Assembly: GCF_003590775.1 (NCBI RefSeq)
Contig: NZ_QYUM01000002.1
Span: forward strand, 1,240,001-1,304,000
Direction: 5' to 3'
From: Sphingomonas cavernae
GTDB lineage: Bacteria; Pseudomonadota; Alphaproteobacteria; Sphingomonadales; Sphingomonadaceae
DNA: 64,000 bases
In this document: positions 54,536 to 64,000 of the stretch, piece by piece
How the letters are laid out: every line of letters starts with the position of its first letter
How positions within the stretch are numbered: the stretch's first letter is position 1
Notes under the pieces: model-generated
What the model saw: only the letters and a program-made list of their open reading frames with translations
Databases searched by the model: none
Told to the model about the DNA's origin: nothing
Made by a program: the position numbers and the translations under genes

Positions 54536-55912
54536 TCAGGCGCGTTCGCGGGATTGCGCCGGAATCGGCAGGGCGATCCGCGCGCACATGCCCCCTGTGG
54601 CAAGCCTCTTCAGTTCCACCGTCCCGCCATGCGCCTCGGTCGCGGACTGCACGATAGAAAGGCCGAGGCCTGCTCCTCCCGTCTTCCGGTTGCGCGAGGG
54701 CTCGCCGCGAAAAAAGGGTTCGAAGGCGCGCGCGATATGCTCGTCGGTCATGCCGGCACCTTTGTCGGCGATCTCGACTATGGCGGCCTCACCCTCGCGT
54801 CGCACGGAGACGCTGGCGGCGTCGCCATATTTCACCGCATTGTCGATGAGGTTGGTGAACAGGCGCTTGAGCAGGATCATGTCCCCGTCGATCGTGATGG
54901 GCTCTGCATGCTTGATGGCGACATCGTGCTGCATGTCGGCGAAATCGTCGACGACGCCTTCGACCAGCAGGCCGAGCTCCAGCGGTTCCATCACCCTTGG
55001 CCTGCTTTCATTGTCGACAAAATCGAGCGTGGTGCCGATGAGCTGCTCCATCTGCCGGATTTCTTCTTCCGCCGCCTTGCGGACATGTTCGGGCGCCGAG
55101 GCGAGATGGAAGTGAAGCCGGGCGAGAGGCGTTCGCAAATCGTGCGCGATCGCGCCGACGACAGAGGTGCGTTCGCGTATGTAGCGCGAGATGCGCGATT
55201 GCATCTCGTTTAGCGAACGCGCCGCCATACGGATTTCGGTCGGGCCCTCTACGGGCACCGGACTTTCCTCGATCCCCGCGCCGAGTCTTTCGGCCGAAGC
55301 GGCGAAGGCGCGGATGGGACGCGTCAGCAGGGCGCTGACCCAAAGGCTCAAGGGAAGGATCAGCAGCAGCCCGATAGGGACCGAATTCCGGCCGATATGC
55401 TGCCAGAGCGTATCGGGGTTGCGCGCCTCGCGCGTAATCATCCGCCACTGCCCCGATGATGTTCTGACCGCTATGGTGAAGCTGCCCAACACGATCGGAT
55501 CGGCGGCGCCTTCCCCACCATATAACGCCATCTCGCGCGCCATGAGGTCGTGACGACCGCGATCCCCGTCGTTGAGATAAACGCGGACGTCGCCGCCAGA
55601 CACTCCAAGCCGATGGGCCAACGCGGCAGCGATCAGCTTTTCAGCATCGTCGTCCGATCGCCGCGGCTCAACAGCCTGTATCCGCGAGCGGATCGAAGGC
55701 GTGTCCTGCGCAAGCGGCTGACCGCGAACCATGCGAGACATTTCATAGACCGAAATCGGCGCACCAACTTCGGGCGTCACGTAAAACATGATGGAAAGGC
55801 TCAGCGCGGTAAGCACCACTATCGCACCAAGGACGAGCGCCAGGATATATGCCTGGATAGAGTTCATCCACAGCGCGAAGCGCTCGAACCAGCCGCCGAT
55901 CCGGCCCATCAT
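54536..55912 (-). CDS. sensor histidine kinase (HAMP, EnvZ-like)
   Basis: A 458-residue membrane kinase. Helices at about 20-45 and 178-197 flank a periplasmic sensor region of about 130 residues; a HAMP domain (about 198-250) precedes AIAHDLRTPLARL, with phospho-acceptor His257, and an ATP-binding domain with NLIDNAVKYG, DKGAGM and GGAGLGLSIV. It overlaps its regulator by four bases. The sensed signal is unknown. The pair sits divergently next to the redox operon starting at 57070. Confidence 0.9.
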   Translation of the reverse strand: MMGRIGGWFERFALWMNSIQAYILALVLGAIVVLTALSLSIMFYVTPEVGAPISVYEMSRMVRGQPLAQDTPSIRSRIQAVEPRRSDDDAEKLIAAALAHRLGVSGGDVRVYLNDGDRGRHDLMAREMALYGGEGAADPIVLGSFTIAVRTSSGQWRMITREARNPDTLWQHIGRNSVPIGLLLILPLSLWVSALLTRPIRAFAASAERLGAGIEESPVPVEGPTEIRMAARSLNEMQSRISRYIRERTSVVGAIAHDLRTPLARLHFHLASAPEHVRKAAEEEIRQMEQLIGTTLDFVDNESRPRVMEPLELGLLVEGVVDDFADMQHDVAIKHAEPITIDGDMILLKRLFTNLIDNAVKYGDAASVSVRREGEAAIVEIADKGAGMTDEHIARAFEPFFRGEPSRNRKTGGAGLGLSIVQSATEAHGGTVELKRLATGGMCARIALPIPAQSRERA

Positions 55913-56664
55913 CCGCGGCTGACCGACGGCAGAAACATATAGCCCTCGCTTCGGACCGTGCGGATGATTTCGCCATGCATCCGTGTCGCGAGCTTGCGGC
56001 GGAGGCGGCTGACCTGCGTGTCGACCGCACGGTCGAAGGCGTCGGAATCATCGCCGCGCGACAACTCCAGAAGCTGGTCGCGGCTCAAAACCCGTTGGGG
56101 GCGCTCGACCAATGCAAGCAACAGGCCGAACTCGCCTTCCGAAAGGCTGATGATCACGCCGCCGGGATCACGCAAAACGCGTCTGACCGGATCAAGCCGC
56201 CATCCTTCGAAGCAGTAATGGACAGCGGCCGATTGAGCACCCGCGGAGGCGCGCCGACGGCGCTGGAGCGCGCGTATTCGTGCGAGCAGTTCGCGCGGCG
56301 AGACGGGTTTGGGCAGATAATCGTCGGCCCCCACCTCGAGGCCGATTATACGATCGGTCTCGCTGCCCAGCGCGGAAACCATGATGATGCCGAGGTCGCC
56401 CTTTTGCACGAGCGAGCGGGCGACCGAAAGGCCATCCTCCCCGGGCATCATCACGTCGAGAATGATGATGTGCACTTCCGACTGCGCCAGAACCCGGCGC
56501 ATCGAAGGCGCATCTTCGGCTTCCAGAACCGCATAACCCTGATCGACCAGGAAATTGCGTACAAGCGATCGCAGCGAAGGATCGTCATCGACGATCAGGA
56601 TGTTGGGCTGAAACAGCTCCTGCCCGCCAGTGCTGAGGGGTTCATCCATGGCATCCAACTGCAT
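55909..56664 (-). CDS. OmpR-family response regulator
   Basis: A 251-residue regulator. The receiver domain has DDD at 26-28, phosphorylation site Asp70 in IIILDVMMPGEDG and KPVSPRELLARI, and the winged-helix output domain carries SEGEFGLLLALVERPQRVLSRDQLLE and RRKLATR...RTVRSEGY. The N-terminus (M1 or M6, MDEPLS) is uncertain. It probably binds DNA upstream of genes controlled with the overlapping kinase. Confidence 0.9.
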   Translation of the reverse strand: MQLDAMDEPLSTGGQELFQPNILIVDDDPSLRSLVRNFLVDQGYAVLEAEDAPSMRRVLAQSEVHIIILDVMMPGEDGLSVARSLVQKGDLGIIMVSALGSETDRIIGLEVGADDYLPKPVSPRELLARIRALQRRRRASAGAQSAAVHYCFEGWRLDPVRRVLRDPGGVIISLSEGEFGLLLALVERPQRVLSRDQLLELSRGDDSDAFDRAVDTQVSRLRRKLATRMHGEIIRTVRSEGYMFLPSVSRG

Positions 56665-57069: not shown

Positions 57070-57381
57070 ATGCGCAAGCTCGTTCTCGCAACGCTTATGG
57101 CCATGATGGCGGCGCCGTCCCCCGTCCTTGCGCAACAGGCCGCGCCGCATGAGCAGCCAGCCAGATACTCGACCGCAGAAACCCCCGTCGGCGACCTGCT
57201 GGACAATCCGGCCGCCCGACAAATCCTTGCGAAACACGCGCCGCGGATCACATCGAGCACCCAGATCGATGCCGTGCGATCGATGCCGCTCAAGGCGCTG
57301 CAAAGCTATGCGCCCGAGGATCTGAGCGACATGGTCCTCGCGAAGATCGACGTCGAACTCGCCAAGCTGCCCGCCAAATAA
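57070..57381 (+). CDS. small secreted protein of unknown function
   Basis: A 103-residue exported protein; signal peptide MRKLVLATLMAMMAAPSPVLA. The mature part has STAETPVGDLLDNPAARQILAKHAP and LKALQSYAPEDLSDMVLAKIDVELAKLP, a helical pattern seen in other short alphaproteobacterial secreted proteins I cannot name. It starts the plus-strand redox run, 13 bases before the HiPIP start. The ATG at 57070 is preferred because the signal peptide begins there. Confidence 0.72.
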   Translation: MRKLVLATLMAMMAAPSPVLAQQAAPHEQPARYSTAETPVGDLLDNPAARQILAKHAPRITSSTQIDAVRSMPLKALQSYAPEDLSDMVLAKIDVELAKLPAK

Positions 57382-57394
57382 GGACAGGTTGGCG

Positions 57395-57745
57395 ATGGGA
57401 CGACAAGCCATGACAAATCAGCCGCACGCAGCACCGCGCGACCCGAATGCGTCGTGGACGCGCCGATCCGCGCTCACGCTGTTCGCTTGCCTGCCGCTGG
57501 GATTTGCCGGCCTTTCCGGGGCAGCTCGGGCGGCGGATTGCGTCAACCAAGCCACGCTCTCCGCGGCGCAGAAAAGCATGCGCAAATCGCTCGGCTTCAA
57601 GGCGCCGTCGCCCGACCCGAAAAAGAAATGCGGCGCGTGCTCCTTCTTTACCGCGTCGGGCAATGGCTGCGGCAAATGCGCGTTGCTGAGCGGCGGCGTC
57701 GTGTCGCCTGATGCGGTGTGCGATTCATGGGCGGCGAAAGGCTGA
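57395..57745 (+). CDS. high-potential iron-sulfur protein
   Basis: A 116-residue electron carrier. A Tat-type signal is suggested by WTRRSALTLF (RR at 23-24) and a hydrophobic stretch to about 46. The 4Fe-4S ligands Cys79, Cys82, Cys95 and Cys109 lie in CGACSFF, CGKCALL and AVCDSW, the HiPIP pattern; Cys49 and Cys92 are extra. HiPIPs shuttle electrons between b/c cytochromes in the periplasm. The ATG is preceded by AGGACAGG. The cytochrome b start is five bases after the stop. Confidence 0.87.
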   Translation: MGRQAMTNQPHAAPRDPNASWTRRSALTLFACLPLGFAGLSGAARAADCVNQATLSAAQKSMRKSLGFKAPSPDPKKKCGACSFFTASGNGCGKCALLSGGVVSPDAVCDSWAAKG

Positions 57746-57750
57746 TCGCC

Positions 57751-58413
57751 ATGCCAGATCCGCACCGGCAATTTGTCTGGGACATTCCGATCCGCATCTT
57801 TCACTGGTCGCTGGTCGGACTGCTGGCCTTCTCATGGTGGAGCGCGGAAAACTACCGGATGGACTGGCATCGTCTGTCGGGACAGGCGGTGCTGTTTCTC
57901 CTCATTTTCCGGGTAATCTGGGGAATTTTGGGCACGCAGACCGCGCGCTTCAGGCATTTCCTGAAAGGACCCCGCGCAATCCGGGCGTGGTGGAAGGGGG
58001 ACCAGTCCGCGCCGGAGCAAATCGGACACAACCCGCTGGGCGGGTGGAGCGTGGTCGCGATGCTTCTCGCGCTCGGTGCGCAGGTCGTCACCGGCCTGTT
58101 CGCTGTCGATATCGACGGGATCGAGTCCGGGCCGCTTTCCCACCTTGTCGACTTCGAGCAGGGCCGGCTGGCCTCGGCGATTCACGACACGAGCTTCAAT
58201 ATCCTGCTCGCGCTCATTGCGCTGCACGTCGCGGCGGTCGTCTTCTATCTCCTCGTGCGTCGCCAAAATCTGGTCGGGCCGATGCTGACGGGCACCAAGG
58301 CTGCCTTGCAACCAGCCGTACCCGTTCGTCGTGGCGGTGTCGTCCAGTTGCTCTGCTCGCTGACGCTGGCGGGCGCGGCTGCCTGGTGGATATTTGCGGA
58401 TCCCGCTTTCTGA
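57751..58413 (+). CDS. b-type cytochrome (cytochrome b561/Ni-hydrogenase type)
   Basis: A 220-residue inner-membrane protein with five hydrophobic helices. His18 (IRIFHWS), His40 (DWHRLSGQ), His145 (AIHDTSFN) and His159 (ALHVAAV) fit two haem ligand pairs of the PF01292 cytochrome b family. It could pass electrons between the quinone pool and periplasmic carriers such as HiPIP. The last helix (GVVQLLCSLTLAGAAAWWIF) is an extra one. Between HiPIP and cytochrome c' genes. Confidence 0.88.
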   Translation: MPDPHRQFVWDIPIRIFHWSLVGLLAFSWWSAENYRMDWHRLSGQAVLFLLIFRVIWGILGTQTARFRHFLKGPRAIRAWWKGDQSAPEQIGHNPLGGWSVVAMLLALGAQVVTGLFAVDIDGIESGPLSHLVDFEQGRLASAIHDTSFNILLALIALHVAAVVFYLLVRRQNLVGPMLTGTKAALQPAVPVRRGGVVQLLCSLTLAGAAAWWIFADPAF

Positions 58414-58485
58414 ACGTGGCGCGGACCGGCCTGCCTCGGGCCGGGCATGCGAACAAGAATAGTAAGTTAAACAAGGAAGAGACGA

Positions 58486-58956
58486 ATGGCGGCAGGCATG
58501 AAACCGGGTTGGAAAGCGGGCGCTCTCGTCGTGATCTGTGCGTTGGCTGCACCATTGCTTGCTGCACCGAACGATATCGTGGCGATGCGTGTTGCGGGGT
58601 TCCGGGAGGTCGGCGCGGCGTTCAAGAACATTAATGACGAGTTGAAGTCGAGCACACCGCAAAAATATGTGATCCAGCTCTCGGCGCGCCAGATCAGGGA
58701 CTATGCGCGCCAGCATTATGGCTGGTTTCCGGCGGGCAGCGGCTCAAAGCCGGGTGTGAAGACCGCCGCCAAGCCCGAAATCTGGAGCCAGGCGGCGGCG
58801 TTCAAGACCGCGCAGGACGGTTTTGCGAAGCAGGCCAATGCCTTTGCGACGGTCGCCGCGAGTGGCGACGTCGCCAGGATGCGCGCGCAGGCCAAGGCGC
58901 TGGGGCAAACCTGCACCGTTTGTCATCGCAGCTTCCGGATCGAGGAACGGCGCTGA
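58486..58956 (+). CDS. cytochrome c' (class II)
   Basis: A 156-residue exported haem protein. Signal peptide through about residue 27, a helical body with AMRVAGFREVGAAFKNIND, and a C-terminal CTVCH (143-147) followed by RSFR, the arrangement of class II cytochromes c'. They bind one high-spin haem and are known to bind NO or transfer electrons. The ATG at 58486 has GGAAGAG upstream. 72 bases separate it from the cytochrome b gene. Confidence 0.88.
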   Translation: MAAGMKPGWKAGALVVICALAAPLLAAPNDIVAMRVAGFREVGAAFKNINDELKSSTPQKYVIQLSARQIRDYARQHYGWFPAGSGSKPGVKTAAKPEIWSQAAAFKTAQDGFAKQANAFATVAASGDVARMRAQAKALGQTCTVCHRSFRIEERR

Positions 58957-58987
58957 TCGACGCGGTCGGGCAGGAAGGAGACGCGTG

Positions 58988-59803
58988 ATGAAGAATATCC
59001 GCAATTGTCTGGCGGTGGTCGCCATGGCCGCGCAGCCCGCCCAGCTTTGGGGGCAGGCGTCGGACATGGACATTTTGGCGGCCGCCTCGGATCGCTTTCC
59101 CGAGGGCATATCGGTGAAGGCAGTCGAGGGTGACAGCGTTTATGTCGATCGTCGGGGCCTGACGCTCTACGGCATGGACGTTCGCGCCGTCACCGGCCGC
59201 ACCGGCAAGCCCTTTGTCTATTGTTCGGGGCCGTGCCTTGACGAATGGCAGCCATTGCTGGCGCCGCCCGGATCAACGCAAGCGCCCGTGTCTCCCGAAT
59301 TCGGCGGATCGCGCATCGCTCCGGGTGGAGAGGACGCCCAAAAAGCGAGCGATGGCGGTGACTGGACGGTCATGCCGGGGCCCGCAGGACCGCAATGGAC
59401 TTACAAGCGCGTCCATCTGGTCTTCACGCGCAAGGGCGACCGGCCGGGTTCAACCGCGCATGACGGCGATGACAGCTATACGTGGAACACGCTGAAATAT
59501 GTTCCGCCCGTGCCCGAGTTTGCAGCACCGCCGAATGTCGAGGCGCGCTTCATCGACGGTGCCTATGTTCTGGCCGATACGCAAGGCAATCTGCTCTTCA
59601 GCCCCAAAGCGAAATCATGCGCCGAGCCATGCGCCGGCTGGCTGGTCTTCGCATCGGGCATGGCGCGCCGGGGCATGGGTGAATGGGCCGTGCGGCAAGG
59701 CGAGGACCATGCCCAATGGGTGTATGGCGGCAAGCCCGTCTACCGGATCAGGAGTAGCAACCTGGCTGACATCCCTGCCGAAGCCGTGTTGCTCAATCCC
59801 TGA
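58988..59803 (+). CDS. secreted COG4315-like protein with two repeats
   Basis: A 271-residue exported protein (signal MKNIRNCLAVVAMAAQ to about 24). Two modules resemble the secreted repeat of COG4315: the first has RRGLTLYGMD and CSGPCLDEWQPL (about 51-85), the second LADTQGNLLFSP and CAEPCAGWLVF (about 195-225). The intervening segment has TYKRVHLVFTRKGDRPG. Function is unknown; the repeat is sometimes found near electron-transfer proteins. ATG 58988 is preceded by AGGAGAC; spacing suits translation. Confidence 0.78.
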   Translation: MKNIRNCLAVVAMAAQPAQLWGQASDMDILAAASDRFPEGISVKAVEGDSVYVDRRGLTLYGMDVRAVTGRTGKPFVYCSGPCLDEWQPLLAPPGSTQAPVSPEFGGSRIAPGGEDAQKASDGGDWTVMPGPAGPQWTYKRVHLVFTRKGDRPGSTAHDGDDSYTWNTLKYVPPVPEFAAPPNVEARFIDGAYVLADTQGNLLFSPKAKSCAEPCAGWLVFASGMARRGMGEWAVRQGEDHAQWVYGGKPVYRIRSSNLADIPAEAVLLNP

Positions 59804-59861
59804 AGCACCGCCCGCAGAACAGCGCCGCAAGCGGCGACAGTAACGAAGAGGATGGCAAGAG

Positions 59862-61076
59862 ATGCAACGGCGAAGGAAACTGCAAGGAGCTATCGCGCTG
59901 GGCGTGTTCCCGGTGGCGGTGATTGCGCTCTCGCCCGGATCGGGCGGCGGTGAATTGACGACGTCCGCGCACGCCGCCGCGCCGGCCTTGCCCGCGCCGC
60001 CCGCCAATGGCGAGATGGGCTTCATCGTCACCCATTTCGCCCCCGCCGTCCATCAGGGCGAGGGCGACTGTCCCGAAGGGCTCGCCGGCACGCTGCGCGA
60101 CAATTATCTGCAGACCGTCGCCCCGGCCGAGCGCACGCGGTTGCTCGACAAGGCGAACGAAAAGGAGCTGACCAGCAACTGGCAGCGCACCGCATTCGGT
60201 CCCGATGGGCTCAACATCTGCTCGCATCCCGACAAGTTCGATCGGCCGCCACAGCGCACGGTCCGGGGCAAAGTGGCTTATGGGCTGAACCTCGATGACG
60301 ACACCGGCAATGACGGCGCGAATGGCGGTGGGAATGCCGGGGGCTGCGCGCACGACAATTTCACCAGCCCCGCGGGCGAAGCGGGAATAGACAACCAGAT
60401 GTGGCGCGCCATGGGCTGCGTGCGCACCTGGCGCGGGGTCGACGGCATGGGCGGAGATATCGTCCGCGGGCTCGACCAGTTCCTGGTGAGTGGCGAGCAC
60501 ACGCAAGTGCTGCTGCTGCGTGGTGTCGACAGCCTGACCGACGATCCTGATGTCGAGGTGATCTACGCCAATAGCGAGGATCGCGCGATCGTCGATTCGC
60601 GCCAGAAATTCATCTTCGGCGCCAGCTACACCGTCACCGGGAATGCGCGCCATCGCAACGTGTTGCGTGGGCGGATCGCGAAGGGCGTGCTGATGACCGA
60701 GCCCACCGACATCCGACTGCGGCAGACCTGGGGTCAGGGATCGGCGCGCGATATAAGGGGCATGCGTACTGAATGGGACCTGCGGCGCGGACGTCTTCGC
60801 CTCGCTTTCCAGCCCGACGGGACGCTCAAGGGGCTGGTGGGCGGCTACCAGCCTTTCTGGAACGTGATGGCCAGCGCCTCGATCGGTGGCATAGGGGCGG
60901 CAACGACCGCAGGCTATGACTGCGCGGCAATGTACGCGGCGCTCCGCAACATGGCCGATGGCGACCGCGATCCAAACACCGGCCAGTGCACGACGATTTC
61001 CAGCGGATTGGAGGCGACCGCGGTCCCCGCCTTCGTCAACGACCGGCTGCCCGAAGCGAAGGTGGCGCGCAAATGA
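59862..61076 (+). CDS. secreted protein of unknown function in redox operon
   Basis: A 404-residue protein with a signal-like N-terminus (about 10-38). Cysteines are paired in GDCPEGL, NICSHP, GGCAHDNF, MGCVRTW and DCAAMY with a late GQCTT, suggesting disulfides or a cofactor site. No CxxCH or domain I recognise. The stop overlaps the next gene's start (ATGA), so the two proteins are co-translated and may work as a complex. Confidence 0.7.
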   Translation: MQRRRKLQGAIALGVFPVAVIALSPGSGGGELTTSAHAAAPALPAPPANGEMGFIVTHFAPAVHQGEGDCPEGLAGTLRDNYLQTVAPAERTRLLDKANEKELTSNWQRTAFGPDGLNICSHPDKFDRPPQRTVRGKVAYGLNLDDDTGNDGANGGGNAGGCAHDNFTSPAGEAGIDNQMWRAMGCVRTWRGVDGMGGDIVRGLDQFLVSGEHTQVLLLRGVDSLTDDPDVEVIYANSEDRAIVDSRQKFIFGASYTVTGNARHRNVLRGRIAKGVLMTEPTDIRLRQTWGQGSARDIRGMRTEWDLRRGRLRLAFQPDGTLKGLVGGYQPFWNVMASASIGGIGAATTAGYDCAAMYAALRNMADGDRDPNTGQCTTISSGLEATAVPAFVNDRLPEAKVARK

Positions 61077-62788
61077 CGCTCACTCGCTTCAAACGCGCGC
61101 GCGGCGCACTTCTCATAGCGTTCGCGCTGGCGGCCTGTACCGCCGAAAATACCCCGCAAGTTGCAGCCACCGAGCCATGGCTCGCCGCGCTCAAGGACCC
61201 ACTCGGGCAGATCGTGGCGATGCGGAGGCTGACCGAGGCGCAGTATCGCAACAGCATCGCCGACATCTTCGGCCCGGACATCACGGTCGCCGGGCGCTTT
61301 GAGCCCATTGTGCGGCCCGTCCACGAACTGATCGCCACGGGAGCCGCGGCCTCCACGATCTCGCCCGCCGGCCTCGAGCAGTTCGACGCGATGGCACGCA
61401 ACATCGCGTTACAGGTCTTCGCGGAGGAAAATCGCGCGCAGTTCATGGCCTGCACGCCGAGGGACGCGACGGCGCCCGATCCCGATTGCGCCGCCCGGGT
61501 CCTCGTCCCGATCGGTCGCTATCTGTTCCGCAGGCCGCTTACCGAAAGCGAGGTCGCGGGCTATGTGAAGATCGCAGGCGATGCGGTCGCCCCCGCCGGG
61601 TCGTTCCACAAGGGGCTGGAGCTCGCGCTCGCGGCGATGCTCGTGTCGCCCAATTTCCTCTATGTCATCGAAAGCGCCGAACCCGATCCGACGAGCCCCG
61701 GCAACCTTCGCCTCGACAACTACGCGCGCGCTGCCCGGCTGAGCTTCCTGTTGTGGAACACGACACCCAATGAGGCGCTGCTTCAGGCGGCGGCAGAGGG
61801 GCGACTTACCGATCAGGCCGAACTTGCAAGGGTTGCCGAACGCATGGTTCGGTCGCCCCGGCTGGAAGACGGCGTGCGTGCCTTCTTCGCGGACATGCTG
61901 CTGTTCGAGAAGTTCGACGAGATGGCGAAGGACCAGGTCGTCTATCCGCGATTCAACGGCGATGTCGCGGCGGCGATGCCCGAACAGATGCTGCGGACGA
62001 TAGTAGACCATCTGGTCGCGCGGCAGGGCGATTATCGCGAGCTGTTCACGACGCGAAAGACCTTCATCAATCGCGCATTGGGGCCGCTCTACCAGACGCA
62101 GGTCAGCGCCTCACAGGGTTGGGTGCCGCTTGAGCTGGACGCCGATGACGATCGCGCCGGCCTGCTGGGTCAGGCCGGGTTCCTTGCGCTCTATTCGCAT
62201 TCGGGGCGGAGCTCACCCACGTTGCGTGGACGCGCGATCCGGGAGCTGCTGCTCTGCCAGCCCGTTCCCAATCCACCCGGCAACGTCAATTTCACCGCCG
62301 TGCAGGAAGTGCACAGCAAGGCAATGCCGACAGCGCGAATCCGGCTCGATGCGCACAACACCGATCCGGTCTGCGCCGCCTGCCACAAGATAACCGACCC
62401 GCTCGGCCTTCCCCTCGAACGCTTTGACGGCATCGGCGCCTTTCGTCCGCGCGAGAACGGCGCCGTCATCGACACCGGCGGCGTATTCGAGGGCGCGGCA
62501 TTCCAGGGCAATACCGGCCTCGGCAAGGCAATGGCCGCGAGCAAATCCACCACCGAATGCGTGGCCGGCCGCGCGTTCCAGTATGCGACCGGGCGCGTGC
62601 CCGAGGATGAAGGCGCGCTGGCTGGCGCGATCGAGCAGGGTTTCGAGGCGGATGGCTATCGCATCCAGGCGCTTTTCCTGCGCGTCGCCACCATGCCCGA
62701 AGCCTATCGGATCACGTCCGGCCCGATCGGCAGCACGACGATAGCGATGATGTCCCCCAACCGCAGCAAGACGGGAGCCAAGCCATGA
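61073..62788 (+). CDS. DUF1587/1595/1592/1588/1585 lipoprotein with c-type haem motif
   Basis: A 571-residue exported protein; lipobox LAACTAENT near residue 20. The domains occur in the order found in planctomycete-type cytochrome-like proteins: RRLTEAQYRNSIADIFG (DUF1587), YLFRRPLTESEVAGYV (DUF1595), LAAMLVSPNFLYVIE (DUF1592), LRGRAIRELLLCQPVP and a CAACHKITDPLG haem motif (DUF1588), and CVAGRAFQYATGR (DUF1585). The family is widespread in planctomycetes and delta/gammaproteobacteria, but its reaction is unknown. It overlaps the genes on both sides. Confidence 0.86.
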   Translation: MTLTRFKRARGALLIAFALAACTAENTPQVAATEPWLAALKDPLGQIVAMRRLTEAQYRNSIADIFGPDITVAGRFEPIVRPVHELIATGAAASTISPAGLEQFDAMARNIALQVFAEENRAQFMACTPRDATAPDPDCAARVLVPIGRYLFRRPLTESEVAGYVKIAGDAVAPAGSFHKGLELALAAMLVSPNFLYVIESAEPDPTSPGNLRLDNYARAARLSFLLWNTTPNEALLQAAAEGRLTDQAELARVAERMVRSPRLEDGVRAFFADMLLFEKFDEMAKDQVVYPRFNGDVAAAMPEQMLRTIVDHLVARQGDYRELFTTRKTFINRALGPLYQTQVSASQGWVPLELDADDDRAGLLGQAGFLALYSHSGRSSPTLRGRAIRELLLCQPVPNPPGNVNFTAVQEVHSKAMPTARIRLDAHNTDPVCAACHKITDPLGLPLERFDGIGAFRPRENGAVIDTGGVFEGAAFQGNTGLGKAMAASKSTTECVAGRAFQYATGRVPEDEGALAGAIEQGFEADGYRIQALFLRVATMPEAYRITSGPIGSTTIAMMSPNRSKTGAKP

Positions 62789-64000
62789 CCTTCACGCTCG
62801 ATCGGAGGACCGCGCTGAGAGGCGCAGTCAACGGCATGGCCGTCGCCATCGGCCTGCCGCTTCTCGACATATTCCTCGACGTCAATGGCGAGGCGATGGC
62901 GGCGACGGGCGCGCCGGTGCCCGTCCGCTTCGGGACATGGTTCTGGGGGCTGGGCGTCAACCCGCCGCGCTGGTTTCCCAGCAAGATCGGCGCGGACTAC
63001 GACCTCAAGGAAGAACTCGCACCGATCGAGCCCTTCAAGAACAAGATCAATATCCTAAGCGATTTCACGCTTCCGCTCGACGGCAAACCCAACCTGCCGC
63101 ACATCAGCGGTGGCATCGGCATCCGCACGGGCATGGCGATCGCGTCCGATCGCGGCCTGCCGGGAACATCCTTCGACGTCTCGATCGGCGACGTGATCGG
63201 CACGCGCACGCGCTTCCGCTCGCTTGAGATTTCGGCGACCGGCGATCCGCGCAACTCGCTGTCGGGGCGCGGCAACGGCAACCTCAATCCCGCGGAAGTG
63301 TCGCCCGCCGCGCTCTATACGCGGATCTTCGGCCCCGGCTTTCGAGATCCCAACAGCGCAAGCTTCACGCCAGACCCGGCGGTGCTCGCGCGGCGCAGCG
63401 TACTTTCAGGCGTCACCGAACAGCGTCAGGCGATTGAATCGCGGCTGGGCGCCTCGGATCGCCAGCGGCTCGACCAGTATTTCACTTCGCTGCGCCAGCT
63501 CGAAAAGCAGCTCGACGTCCAGCTCACCAAACCTGAGCCGATGCAGGGCTGCGTGGTGCCGGGCAAGGTGCCCGAGCTGCCGGTCAATGCCGAAATCGAG
63601 AATGTGATGCGCAACCACGAAATCATGGCGGACCTGCTCGTCATGGCGATGGCCTGCGACAACACCCGTGTCTTCAACATGAACTTCAACAATGGCGCGT
63701 CGTCGCTGACGCGGATCGGCAGCACGATCACGCATCACCAACTCACGCACGAGGAAGTTCTCGACAACCGACTGGGCTACCAGCCCGAAGCGACCTTCTT
63801 CGTCAACAAGTGCATGGAGGCGTGGGTCTATTTCATCAAGGCGCTCGACGCGGTGAAGGAGGGCGACCGGACGCTGCTCGATAACACGCTGGTCTTCGCG
63901 CACAGCGAGACCGAGTTCGCCAAGTTCCACACGATCGACAACATCCCGATGATGACAGCCGGTTCGGGCGGCGGGCGTGTCCGCACCGGGCTGCACATAG
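62785..64000 (+). CDS. Tat-exported DUF1552 protein (cut by window edge)
   Basis: At least 405 residues from ATG 62785 (overlapping the previous stop) to the right edge. A Tat signal is visible as LDRRTALRGAVNG. The mature part matches DUF1552, with FGTWFWGLGVNPPRWFP, LNPAEVSPAALYTRIFG, LTHEEVLDN and LVFAHSETEFA; it is thought to share the alkaline-phosphatase/sulfatase-like fold of DUF1501. DUF1552 proteins are usually encoded beside DUF1592 proteins, as here. The reaction is not known. Confidence 0.87.
   Translation, partial: MTFTLDRRTALRGAVNGMAVAIGLPLLDIFLDVNGEAMAATGAPVPVRFGTWFWGLGVNPPRWFPSKIGADYDLKEELAPIEPFKNKINILSDFTLPLDGKPNLPHISGGIGIRTGMAIASDRGLPGTSFDVSIGDVIGTRTRFRSLEISATGDPRNSLSGRGNGNLNPAEVSPAALYTRIFGPGFRDPNSASFTPDPAVLARRSVLSGVTEQRQAIESRLGASDRQRLDQYFTSLRQLEKQLDVQLTKPEPMQGCVVPGKVPELPVNAEIENVMRNHEIMADLLVMAMACDNTRVFNMNFNNGASSLTRIGSTITHHQLTHEEVLDNRLGYQPEATFFVNKCMEAWVYFIKALDAVKEGDRTLLDNTLVFAHSETEFAKFHTIDNIPMMTAGSGGGRVRTGLHI

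Follow-up and report, generated by a model that had tools for sequence, protein, structure and literature searches.

A conserved DUF1592/DUF1552 operon with separate electron-carrier genes in Sphingomonas cavernae, a candidate periplasmic oxidoreductase

What chemistry is served when a set of electron carriers is lined up beside two protein families whose names are little more than numbers? The question is raised by eight genes at the end of a 64,000 nt stretch of Sphingomonas cavernae DNA (NZ_QYUM01000002.1; hereafter the window, in whose numbering all positions are given), which encode a small protein, a HiPIP, a membrane cytochrome b561, a cytochrome c', a COG4315-like protein, a protein of 404 residues, a DUF1592 lipoprotein and a DUF1552 protein. 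No reaction is known for DUF1592 or DUF1552, although Cbp2D of Cellvibrio, which apparently carries a DUF1592 domain, is needed on insoluble cellulose according to the available text of PMC12542752. Judging from gene calls and conservation, the locus is a real, conserved operon of a known but uncharacterised kind. Three findings are new here: DUF1552 proteins split by partner, those beside the 404-residue protein lacking the HxxSHH of the Pfam family and those beside an ankyrin protein keeping it; the carriers vary (HiPIP, cytochrome c'/b561, diheme c, blue-copper protein, pyrroloquinoline quinone (PQQ) dehydrogenase) around a constant core; and the cytochrome c'-b561 pair is a generic one. 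Our preferred reading, held tentatively and at rather less than an even chance, is that genes 6-8 encode an electron-coupled periplasmic oxidoreductase that oxidises a hydrophobic small molecule and is a split relative of Cbp2D. A preliminary description of the window had proposed a redox complex acting on a polymer or small molecule at the cell surface; in outline this holds, but it claimed too much for the specificity of the electron route and for a polymer as substrate.

A constant core with two kinds of partner

A DUF1592 gene neighbours every one of the 53 DUF1552 copies tabulated (45 without the eight loci found through the 404-residue protein; L-numbers below are loci of relatives and G-numbers genomes). 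Left out of the table were L040, with a match of 1e-5, L032 and L033, which have no DUF1552, a second L055 fragment, and the weak PF07586 matches G213:C17, G885 and G1084. The partner is the 404-residue protein in 31 copies, an ankyrin protein in 14 and neither in eight, the motif being unread in two of these. Beside the 404-residue protein the last three motif letters are THE in 27 copies, SHE in two, SHD in one and THT in one; SHH occurs in 0 of these 31, whereas all 14 ankyrin-linked copies have it. Gene 8 thus belongs to a divergent DUF1552 subfamily. Without the loci found through the 404-residue protein, the numbers become 23, 14 and eight, with SHH in 0 of the 23. A tree of 52 of the 53 copies (L055:114 was too short), made by a quick method and with several other long branches unsure, separates the 404 group from the rest by a branch of length 1.93, which has full support (100) in the Shimodaira-Hasegawa-like approximate likelihood ratio test (SH-aLRT). 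The DUF1592 proteins carry one CxxCH in 28 of the 31 404-group copies (those with data) and two in 13 of the 14 ankyrin-group copies; the first of the two, in L041, lies inside a PSCyt1/Cytochrome_CBB3 match below cut-offs. The ankyrin copies are not independent, since eight of the 14 bear one genus label (g16). A change from SHH to THE that accompanies a change of partner hints at which residues and subunits may determine the reaction.

The gene 7 product has DUF1587, 1595, 1592, 1588 and 1585 in that order, each over its Pfam cut-off, and nothing beyond these five by Pfam, whether a fused redox domain or a carbohydrate-binding module (CBM); it is the single PF07631 match in the genome. It has a lipobox (read by eye), and the CAACH ascribed to it at the outset is present, the haem motif falling in DUF1588 with C385, C388 and H389 invariant in an alignment of 31 rows. 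Gene 8 scores 180.2 bits against the DUF1552 profile (cut-off 30) and reads HQLTHE in place of the name-giving HxxSHH, its last histidine replaced by glutamate. In 97% of 39 rows positions 7-8 are arginines typical of twin-arginine translocation (Tat), and H106, D131, H318, H322, D366 and H382, invariant or nearly so, may form a metal site. Genes 1 and 6 match zero Pfam families, and the 404-residue protein keeps its original label of unrecognised, the best Pfam E-value among 25 members being 0.015, in one member. An NCBIfam scan gave none above cut-offs. PDB searches with the single sequences of genes 7, 8 and 6, and with profiles of their families (42, 31 and 25 rows), returned nothing or weak incidental matches, the best at 0.022.

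Scanned against genome contigs, the 404-residue protein led to eight loci, all eight with DUF1592, DUF1552, cytochrome c' and COG4315-like genes. The order HiPIP, cytochrome c', COG4315-like, 404, DUF1592, DUF1552, with a divergent two-component system, is kept in seven; the HiPIP is displaced in L023, and b561 was not found in L017 or L023. The two-component system, passed over by the preliminary description, holds the same place in all seven of L016-L022; no counterpart was seen in the L023 and L024 stretches. Within the order, the 404-residue protein occurs in 8 of 296 genomes at 12 places, ten of them clustered with DUF1592/DUF1552; the other two are L032, at a contig end, and L033, a weak match without the pair. 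DUF1552 itself is uncommon, being found in 23 of 396 genomes of the order, 8 of 385 of the class (six over the cut-off) and 8 of 398 of the phylum. A homologue of gene 1 appeared, among the loci scanned, only in L016 (in the same place) and L030, and longer members of the COG4315-like family in L026 and L029 score 6e-24 and 3e-31. A second copy of the 404 family lies in the same cluster of L030 (L030:12375-13367) with no DUF1592/1552 pair of its own within the stretch. Genomes G991 and G1064, of one genus label (L060-L069), have five DUF1552 copies each, all ten with the 404-residue protein, and some of these copies adjoin Fer2/MoCoBD and PQQ dehydrogenase genes.

As the preliminary description had it, eight open reading frames lie close together on the plus strand (57070-64125) and three pairs are tightly coupled: an ATGA overlap joins genes 6/7 and likewise genes 7/8, and the distance within 2/3 is either an overlap or a gap of five bases, depending on the start chosen. 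At the level of gene calls, the predicted eight-gene operon is confirmed (Table 1), and the assignments of HiPIP, cytochrome b and cytochrome c' hold with it. Gene 8 ends 125 bases past the window and the gene after it is on the opposite strand; terminator-like sites were not in excess (8 against 6.3, standard deviation 3.0, in shuffles). Just downstream, at 64208-69886 on the minus strand and converging on the operon, lies the gene of a repeat-rich, autotransporter-like protein of 1892 residues, and beyond the window a transposase-like reading frame (76518-77150, minus strand), both translations being judged by eye.

Table 1. The operon and the divergent regulatory genes, in window numbering
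Feature	Positions	Strand	Remarks
Sensor histidine kinase	54536..55912	-	Divergent from operon; Pfam HAMP, HisKA, HATPase
OmpR-type response regulator	55909..56664	-	Pfam Response_reg and Trans_reg_C; conserved together with kinase
Gene 1, 103-residue protein, signal-like start	57070..57381	+	Without Pfam family; alternative starts 57043, 57064
Gene 2, HiPIP, Tat-type RR motif	57410..57745	+	Pfam HIPIP 2.7e-6
Gene 3, membrane cytochrome b561	57718..58413	+	Pfam Ni_hydr_CYTB 2.2e-21
Gene 4, cytochrome c' (CTVCH)	58486..58956	+	Pfam Cytochrom_C_2 1.4e-24
Gene 5, COG4315-like protein	58988..59803	+	Lipoprotein_15 below cut-off, 13.7 of 24.4 bits
Gene 6, 404-residue protein	59862..61076	+	No convincing Pfam or PDB match
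Gene 7, DUF1587-1595-1592-1588-1585 lipoprotein, one CAACH	61073..62788	+	Five Pfam domains above cut-off
Gene 8, DUF1552 (HXXSHH family), Tat-type RR	62785..64000, on to 64125	+	Pfam 9.5e-53

Electron carriers around the core

The HiPIP of gene 2 is the only PF01355 match in the genome (28 bits, cut-off 22), and an alignment of 14 rows shows six conserved cysteines, two more than the four that serve HiPIPs as ligands. In the b561 of gene 3 the conserved histidines are H29, H51, H104, H156 and H170. Gene 4 reaches 87.8 bits against the cytochrome c' profile (cut-off 26.5), with its CxxCH at the C-terminus, and has phenylalanine at the N-terminal helix position where cytochrome c-556 presumably has methionine. 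At the position four after the N-terminal arginine, phenylalanine, tyrosine or leucine stands in all 21 linked rows, which suggests an open haem face; two controls have methionine there.

Within 6.5 kb of the 31 404-group copies (eight of them found via the 404-residue protein) there are 15 with HiPIP, 12 with cytochrome c' and nine with b561. Among the 45 DUF1552 copies outside those eight loci, the same distance takes in cytochrome c' in 13, b561 in 12, HiPIP in seven, any of them in 17 and all three in two, so that the association of redox genes with the pair does extend beyond this strain, and the full set of three does so in two copies only. The order of genes is fluid: HiPIP-b561-c'-4315-404-1592-1552 in the window, 404-1592-1552-(4315)-c'-b561 in L026 and L027, and 1592-1552-ankyrin-c'-b561 in L041-L047, L049 and L050. 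Other carriers take their place elsewhere, among them a cytochrome c with two matched stretches (a diheme c) in L031 with a homologue in L029, PQQ dehydrogenases of L025 and L030 that include a cytochrome domain (PQQ-model matches lie further off in L063 and L066), and a plastocyanin/azurin-family (blue-copper) gene between the DUF1552 and 404 genes at L059:8136-8567, with phmmer finding it at no other locus. The core occurs also with other carriers or with none found nearby, and carrier replacement around a constant core is what would be expected if the core needs a one-electron partner.

Mechanism, direction of flow and substrate

In the mechanism that we prefer, DUF1552 would be the likely catalytic subunit of a complex, folded and probably metallated in the cytoplasm before export by Tat. 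The DUF1592 lipoprotein would anchor it to a membrane and pass single electrons through its haem, the 404-residue protein would act as a subfamily-specific partner, perhaps in substrate binding, and cytochrome b561, cytochrome c' and HiPIP would connect the DUF1592 haem with the quinone pool. Electrons would flow from quinol to the enzyme and there drive a hydroxylation or oxygenation, the substrate being a hydrophobic small molecule taken in via a TonB receptor; in some relatives PQQ and molybdenum dehydrogenases would act next, and the two-component system probably switches the operon on. The steps from quinol to b561 and on to cytochrome c' or HiPIP run downhill in potential, and the PQQ and molybdenum dehydrogenases beside some loci would be of alcohol- and aldehyde-oxidising kinds, from which we infer an electron-fed oxidation making an alcohol. 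The same complex may instead run in the opposite sense, the substrate being dehydrogenated and its electrons passing through the DUF1592 haem to HiPIP or cytochrome c' and then to quinone or a terminal oxidase. HiPIPs and blue-copper proteins such as that of L059 are high-potential carriers and often electron acceptors, and several loci have beside them genes for PQQ dehydrogenase and molybdenum hydroxylase, dehydrogenases of just this sort; yet a quinone-facing cytochrome b561 would not be needed if electrons ended on HiPIP, and quinol to HiPIP is the downhill direction. We regard this opposite flow as a serious possibility, only a little less likely than the direction that we prefer.

Several observations weigh against electron-fed oxidation of a small molecule by such a complex. 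The gene content fits reverse flow, with substrate electrons entering HiPIP, almost as well. Within 6.5 kb of thirteen of the 31 404-group copies (L028, L056, L059-L066 and L068-L070), no carrier of the haem-motif, HiPIP, b561 or PQQ kind was found; L059 has its blue-copper gene, and four of the 13 lie within 3.5 kb of the end of a stretch. The cytochrome c'-b561 pair is generic, b561 adjoining 19 of 20 control cytochrome c' genes (the 20 best-scoring of 58 places away from DUF1552), and may serve other partners. AlphaFold2 models, built on shallow alignments of nine rows each from the window and related loci only, reached a mean predicted local distance difference test score (pLDDT) of 42.3 for the 404-residue protein and 29.6 for DUF1552, too poor for a fold search, and a profile search of the PDB returned nothing credible for DUF1552, a possible member of the alkaline-phosphatase superfamily by fold and metal site. 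The proposed substrate class is drawn from neighbours that vary between loci. Lastly, in the available text of PMC10916295, the X183 domains of T. turnerae did not feed the lytic polysaccharide monooxygenase (LPMO) tested, and a putative PQQ domain bound no PQQ.

Because the cytochrome c'-b561 pair is generic in sphingomonads, the complete quinone-to-periplasm route that the preliminary description tied to the DUF pair is better regarded as recruited than as specific, and uniqueness of the route was rejected on the same controls. In a cytochrome c' tree, 404-linked and ankyrin-linked rows lie apart, with controls L074, L073, L086 and L071 inside or beside both, which suggests that cytochrome c' may have been recruited more than once; the strongly supported branches would also fit one origin followed by losses. 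Could the transcript then carry two functions, a generic cytochrome c'-b561 module for electrons or for nitric oxide or peroxide, and an independent, hydrolase-like DUF1592/1552/404 system? The control pairs, the open haem face suggested by the 21 linked rows and the 13 core copies without tested carriers nearby would all fit. Yet DUF1592 carries a haem motif of its own, and the cytochrome c'-b561 pair is met repeatedly next to the core, in orders that differ, in both the 404 and the ankyrin subfamilies. Cytochrome c' homologues occur at 63 places in 62 of 296 genomes, and in five of the seven genomes that hold both it and DUF1552 (G000, G125, G146, G223 and G269; not G117 or G213) the two lie within 6.5 kb, against about 0.03 expected by a rough estimate. 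We consider two separate functions improbable.

Around the 404 clade, the neighbours sampled are genes of small-molecule catabolism. TonB receptors of one cluster accompany 8 of the 31 404-group copies; Rieske oxygenases occur in L024 and L068, that of L068 being of KshA type and adjoining DUF1552. L061 has a flavin-containing monooxygenase on the other strand, alpha/beta and dienelactone hydrolases flank the core in L060, and short-chain dehydrogenases/reductases and, in L027, an acyl-CoA dehydrogenase are also found. Fer2 and MoCoBD molybdenum-hydroxylase genes come next, on the same strand, after the core and a COG4315-like gene in L066 and, judged by cluster, in L063; genes of Fer2/MoCoBD type are also present in L025. 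Beside the ankyrin-type operon, xanthine/uracil permease, amidohydrolase, purine nucleoside permease and TonB receptor genes stand together in L043-L047 and partly in L041 and L048. The purine genes were rejected as a clue to substrate, because all three (permease, amidohydrolase and nucleoside permease) occur in L043-L047 only, under one genus label, and not in L042, L049 or L050.

An oxidative system that cleaves polysaccharide, or supports an LPMO, at the cell surface in the manner of Cbp2D would draw its support largely from other bacteria. Four genomes that belong to the phylum but to other classes (L036-L039; two share a genus, and all four are, at a guess, gammaproteobacteria) encode proteins of 1590-2369 residues that have the DUF1592 region at the C-terminal end and also bear 2-4 CxxCH motifs and various matches to PKD, Ig-like, CBM26 or GSDH; a DUF1552 gene adjoins. 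In L036 and L038 the stretch around the CxxCH that precedes this region matches the solved chain 8q1v_A, which we tentatively take to be an X183 domain. Deletions of cbp2D and cbp2E, in the mutant background examined, impaired growth on insoluble cellulose, and direct cleavage by a novel mechanism was proposed, in the available text of PMC12542752; that of PMC6004670 lists a CBM2-DUF1592 Cellvibrio protein in a lignocellulose-degrading community. In the 404 clade, by contrast, 0 of 40 proteins scanned (a hand-picked sample, one of which, from L029, is itself COG4315-like) matched a glycoside hydrolase or CBM at E up to 0.001, no CBM was found by Pfam among the window's eight proteins, and LPMO10 (PF03067), the one LPMO family searched for, had 0 matches in its genome. 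A role as electron donor to AA10 is unlikely here because the HiPIP is the genome's only one and there is no LPMO10. We rate a polymer substrate at this locus as distinctly improbable, and the earlier suggestion of one is not favoured in the 404 clade. A wider proposal, speculative and on balance unlikely, would see in DUF1552-DUF1592 a new class of oxidative enzyme, periplasmic and driven by electrons, whose carriers can be exchanged, as can a third subunit (404 or ankyrin) that sets the substrate: the sphingomonad form would attack steroid-, terpenoid- or aromatic-like molecules before uptake, and the CBM-fused form, Cbp2D included, cellulose or starch by the same chemistry.

Comparison with known systems

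Genes of the DUF1592/DUF1552 kind are frequent in planctomycetes. To call the operon undescribed, as was done at first, is too strong: the available text of PMC5615132 names the domains as of unknown function, reports such genes as frequent in some Verrucomicrobia genomes and states that nothing is known of the function of PSCyt genes, while that of PMC7789669 counts DUF1587, 1588, 1592 and 1595, from domain comparisons, among domains to add to a Pseudomonas design for anaerobic respiration. Literature searches with DUF1592, DUF1552 and related names turned up no publication that treats the sphingomonad operon or the family of the 404-residue protein. The planctomycete-type PSCyt3/PSD2-5 gene shares with the window all five domains (DUF1588, 1585, 1587, 1592 and 1595) and a neighbouring DUF1552 gene; the window differs in its 404 partner, the THE of its DUF1552, its separate HiPIP, b561 and c' genes and its own two-component system, and its DUF1592 protein has one CxxCH where the ankyrin subfamily has two.

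DUF1501 and DUF1800 form another adjacent pair, found together (17 and 16 of 100 genomes). Their profile similarity to the two halves of the core is weak (hhalign probabilities 16.8 and 26.7; 404-residue protein against DUF1800, 0.3), and homology was set aside as too weak to claim; neither family has a match in the window's genome, and the DUF1501 profile found nothing credible in the PDB. Genes 3-4 are a sphingomonad cytochrome c'-b561 pair, with b561 preceding c' inside the DUF1592/1552 operon, whereas in the controls c' precedes b561 and the pair lies elsewhere.

The closest comparison is with Cbp2D/Cbp2E and TERTU_3803/TERTU_2913 (CAZy X132), which like the window couple a CxxCH-bearing C-terminal region to other redox modules. 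Cbp2D carries DUF1587 beside X132 in the available text of PMC8981238, and that of PMC10916295, where DUF1687 is printed for T. turnerae, gives X132 a CxxCH motif and no characterised homologue. Compared by description, from architecture and from the DUF annotation beside X132 in these two papers, X132 would correspond to DUF1595-1592-1588-1585, and Cbp2D would thus apparently have the same domain set as gene 7. The Cbp2D and TERTU proteins are large, secreted and multi-domain, most with CBMs (TERTU_2913 without); in the operon the carriers are kept as separate genes and no CBM occurs, and the genome lacks LPMO10. Since the system consists here of small single-copy genes, with a regulator of their own alongside and no LPMO10 in the genome, each of its parts (electron carriers, haem protein, candidate catalytic subunit) can be tested by itself.

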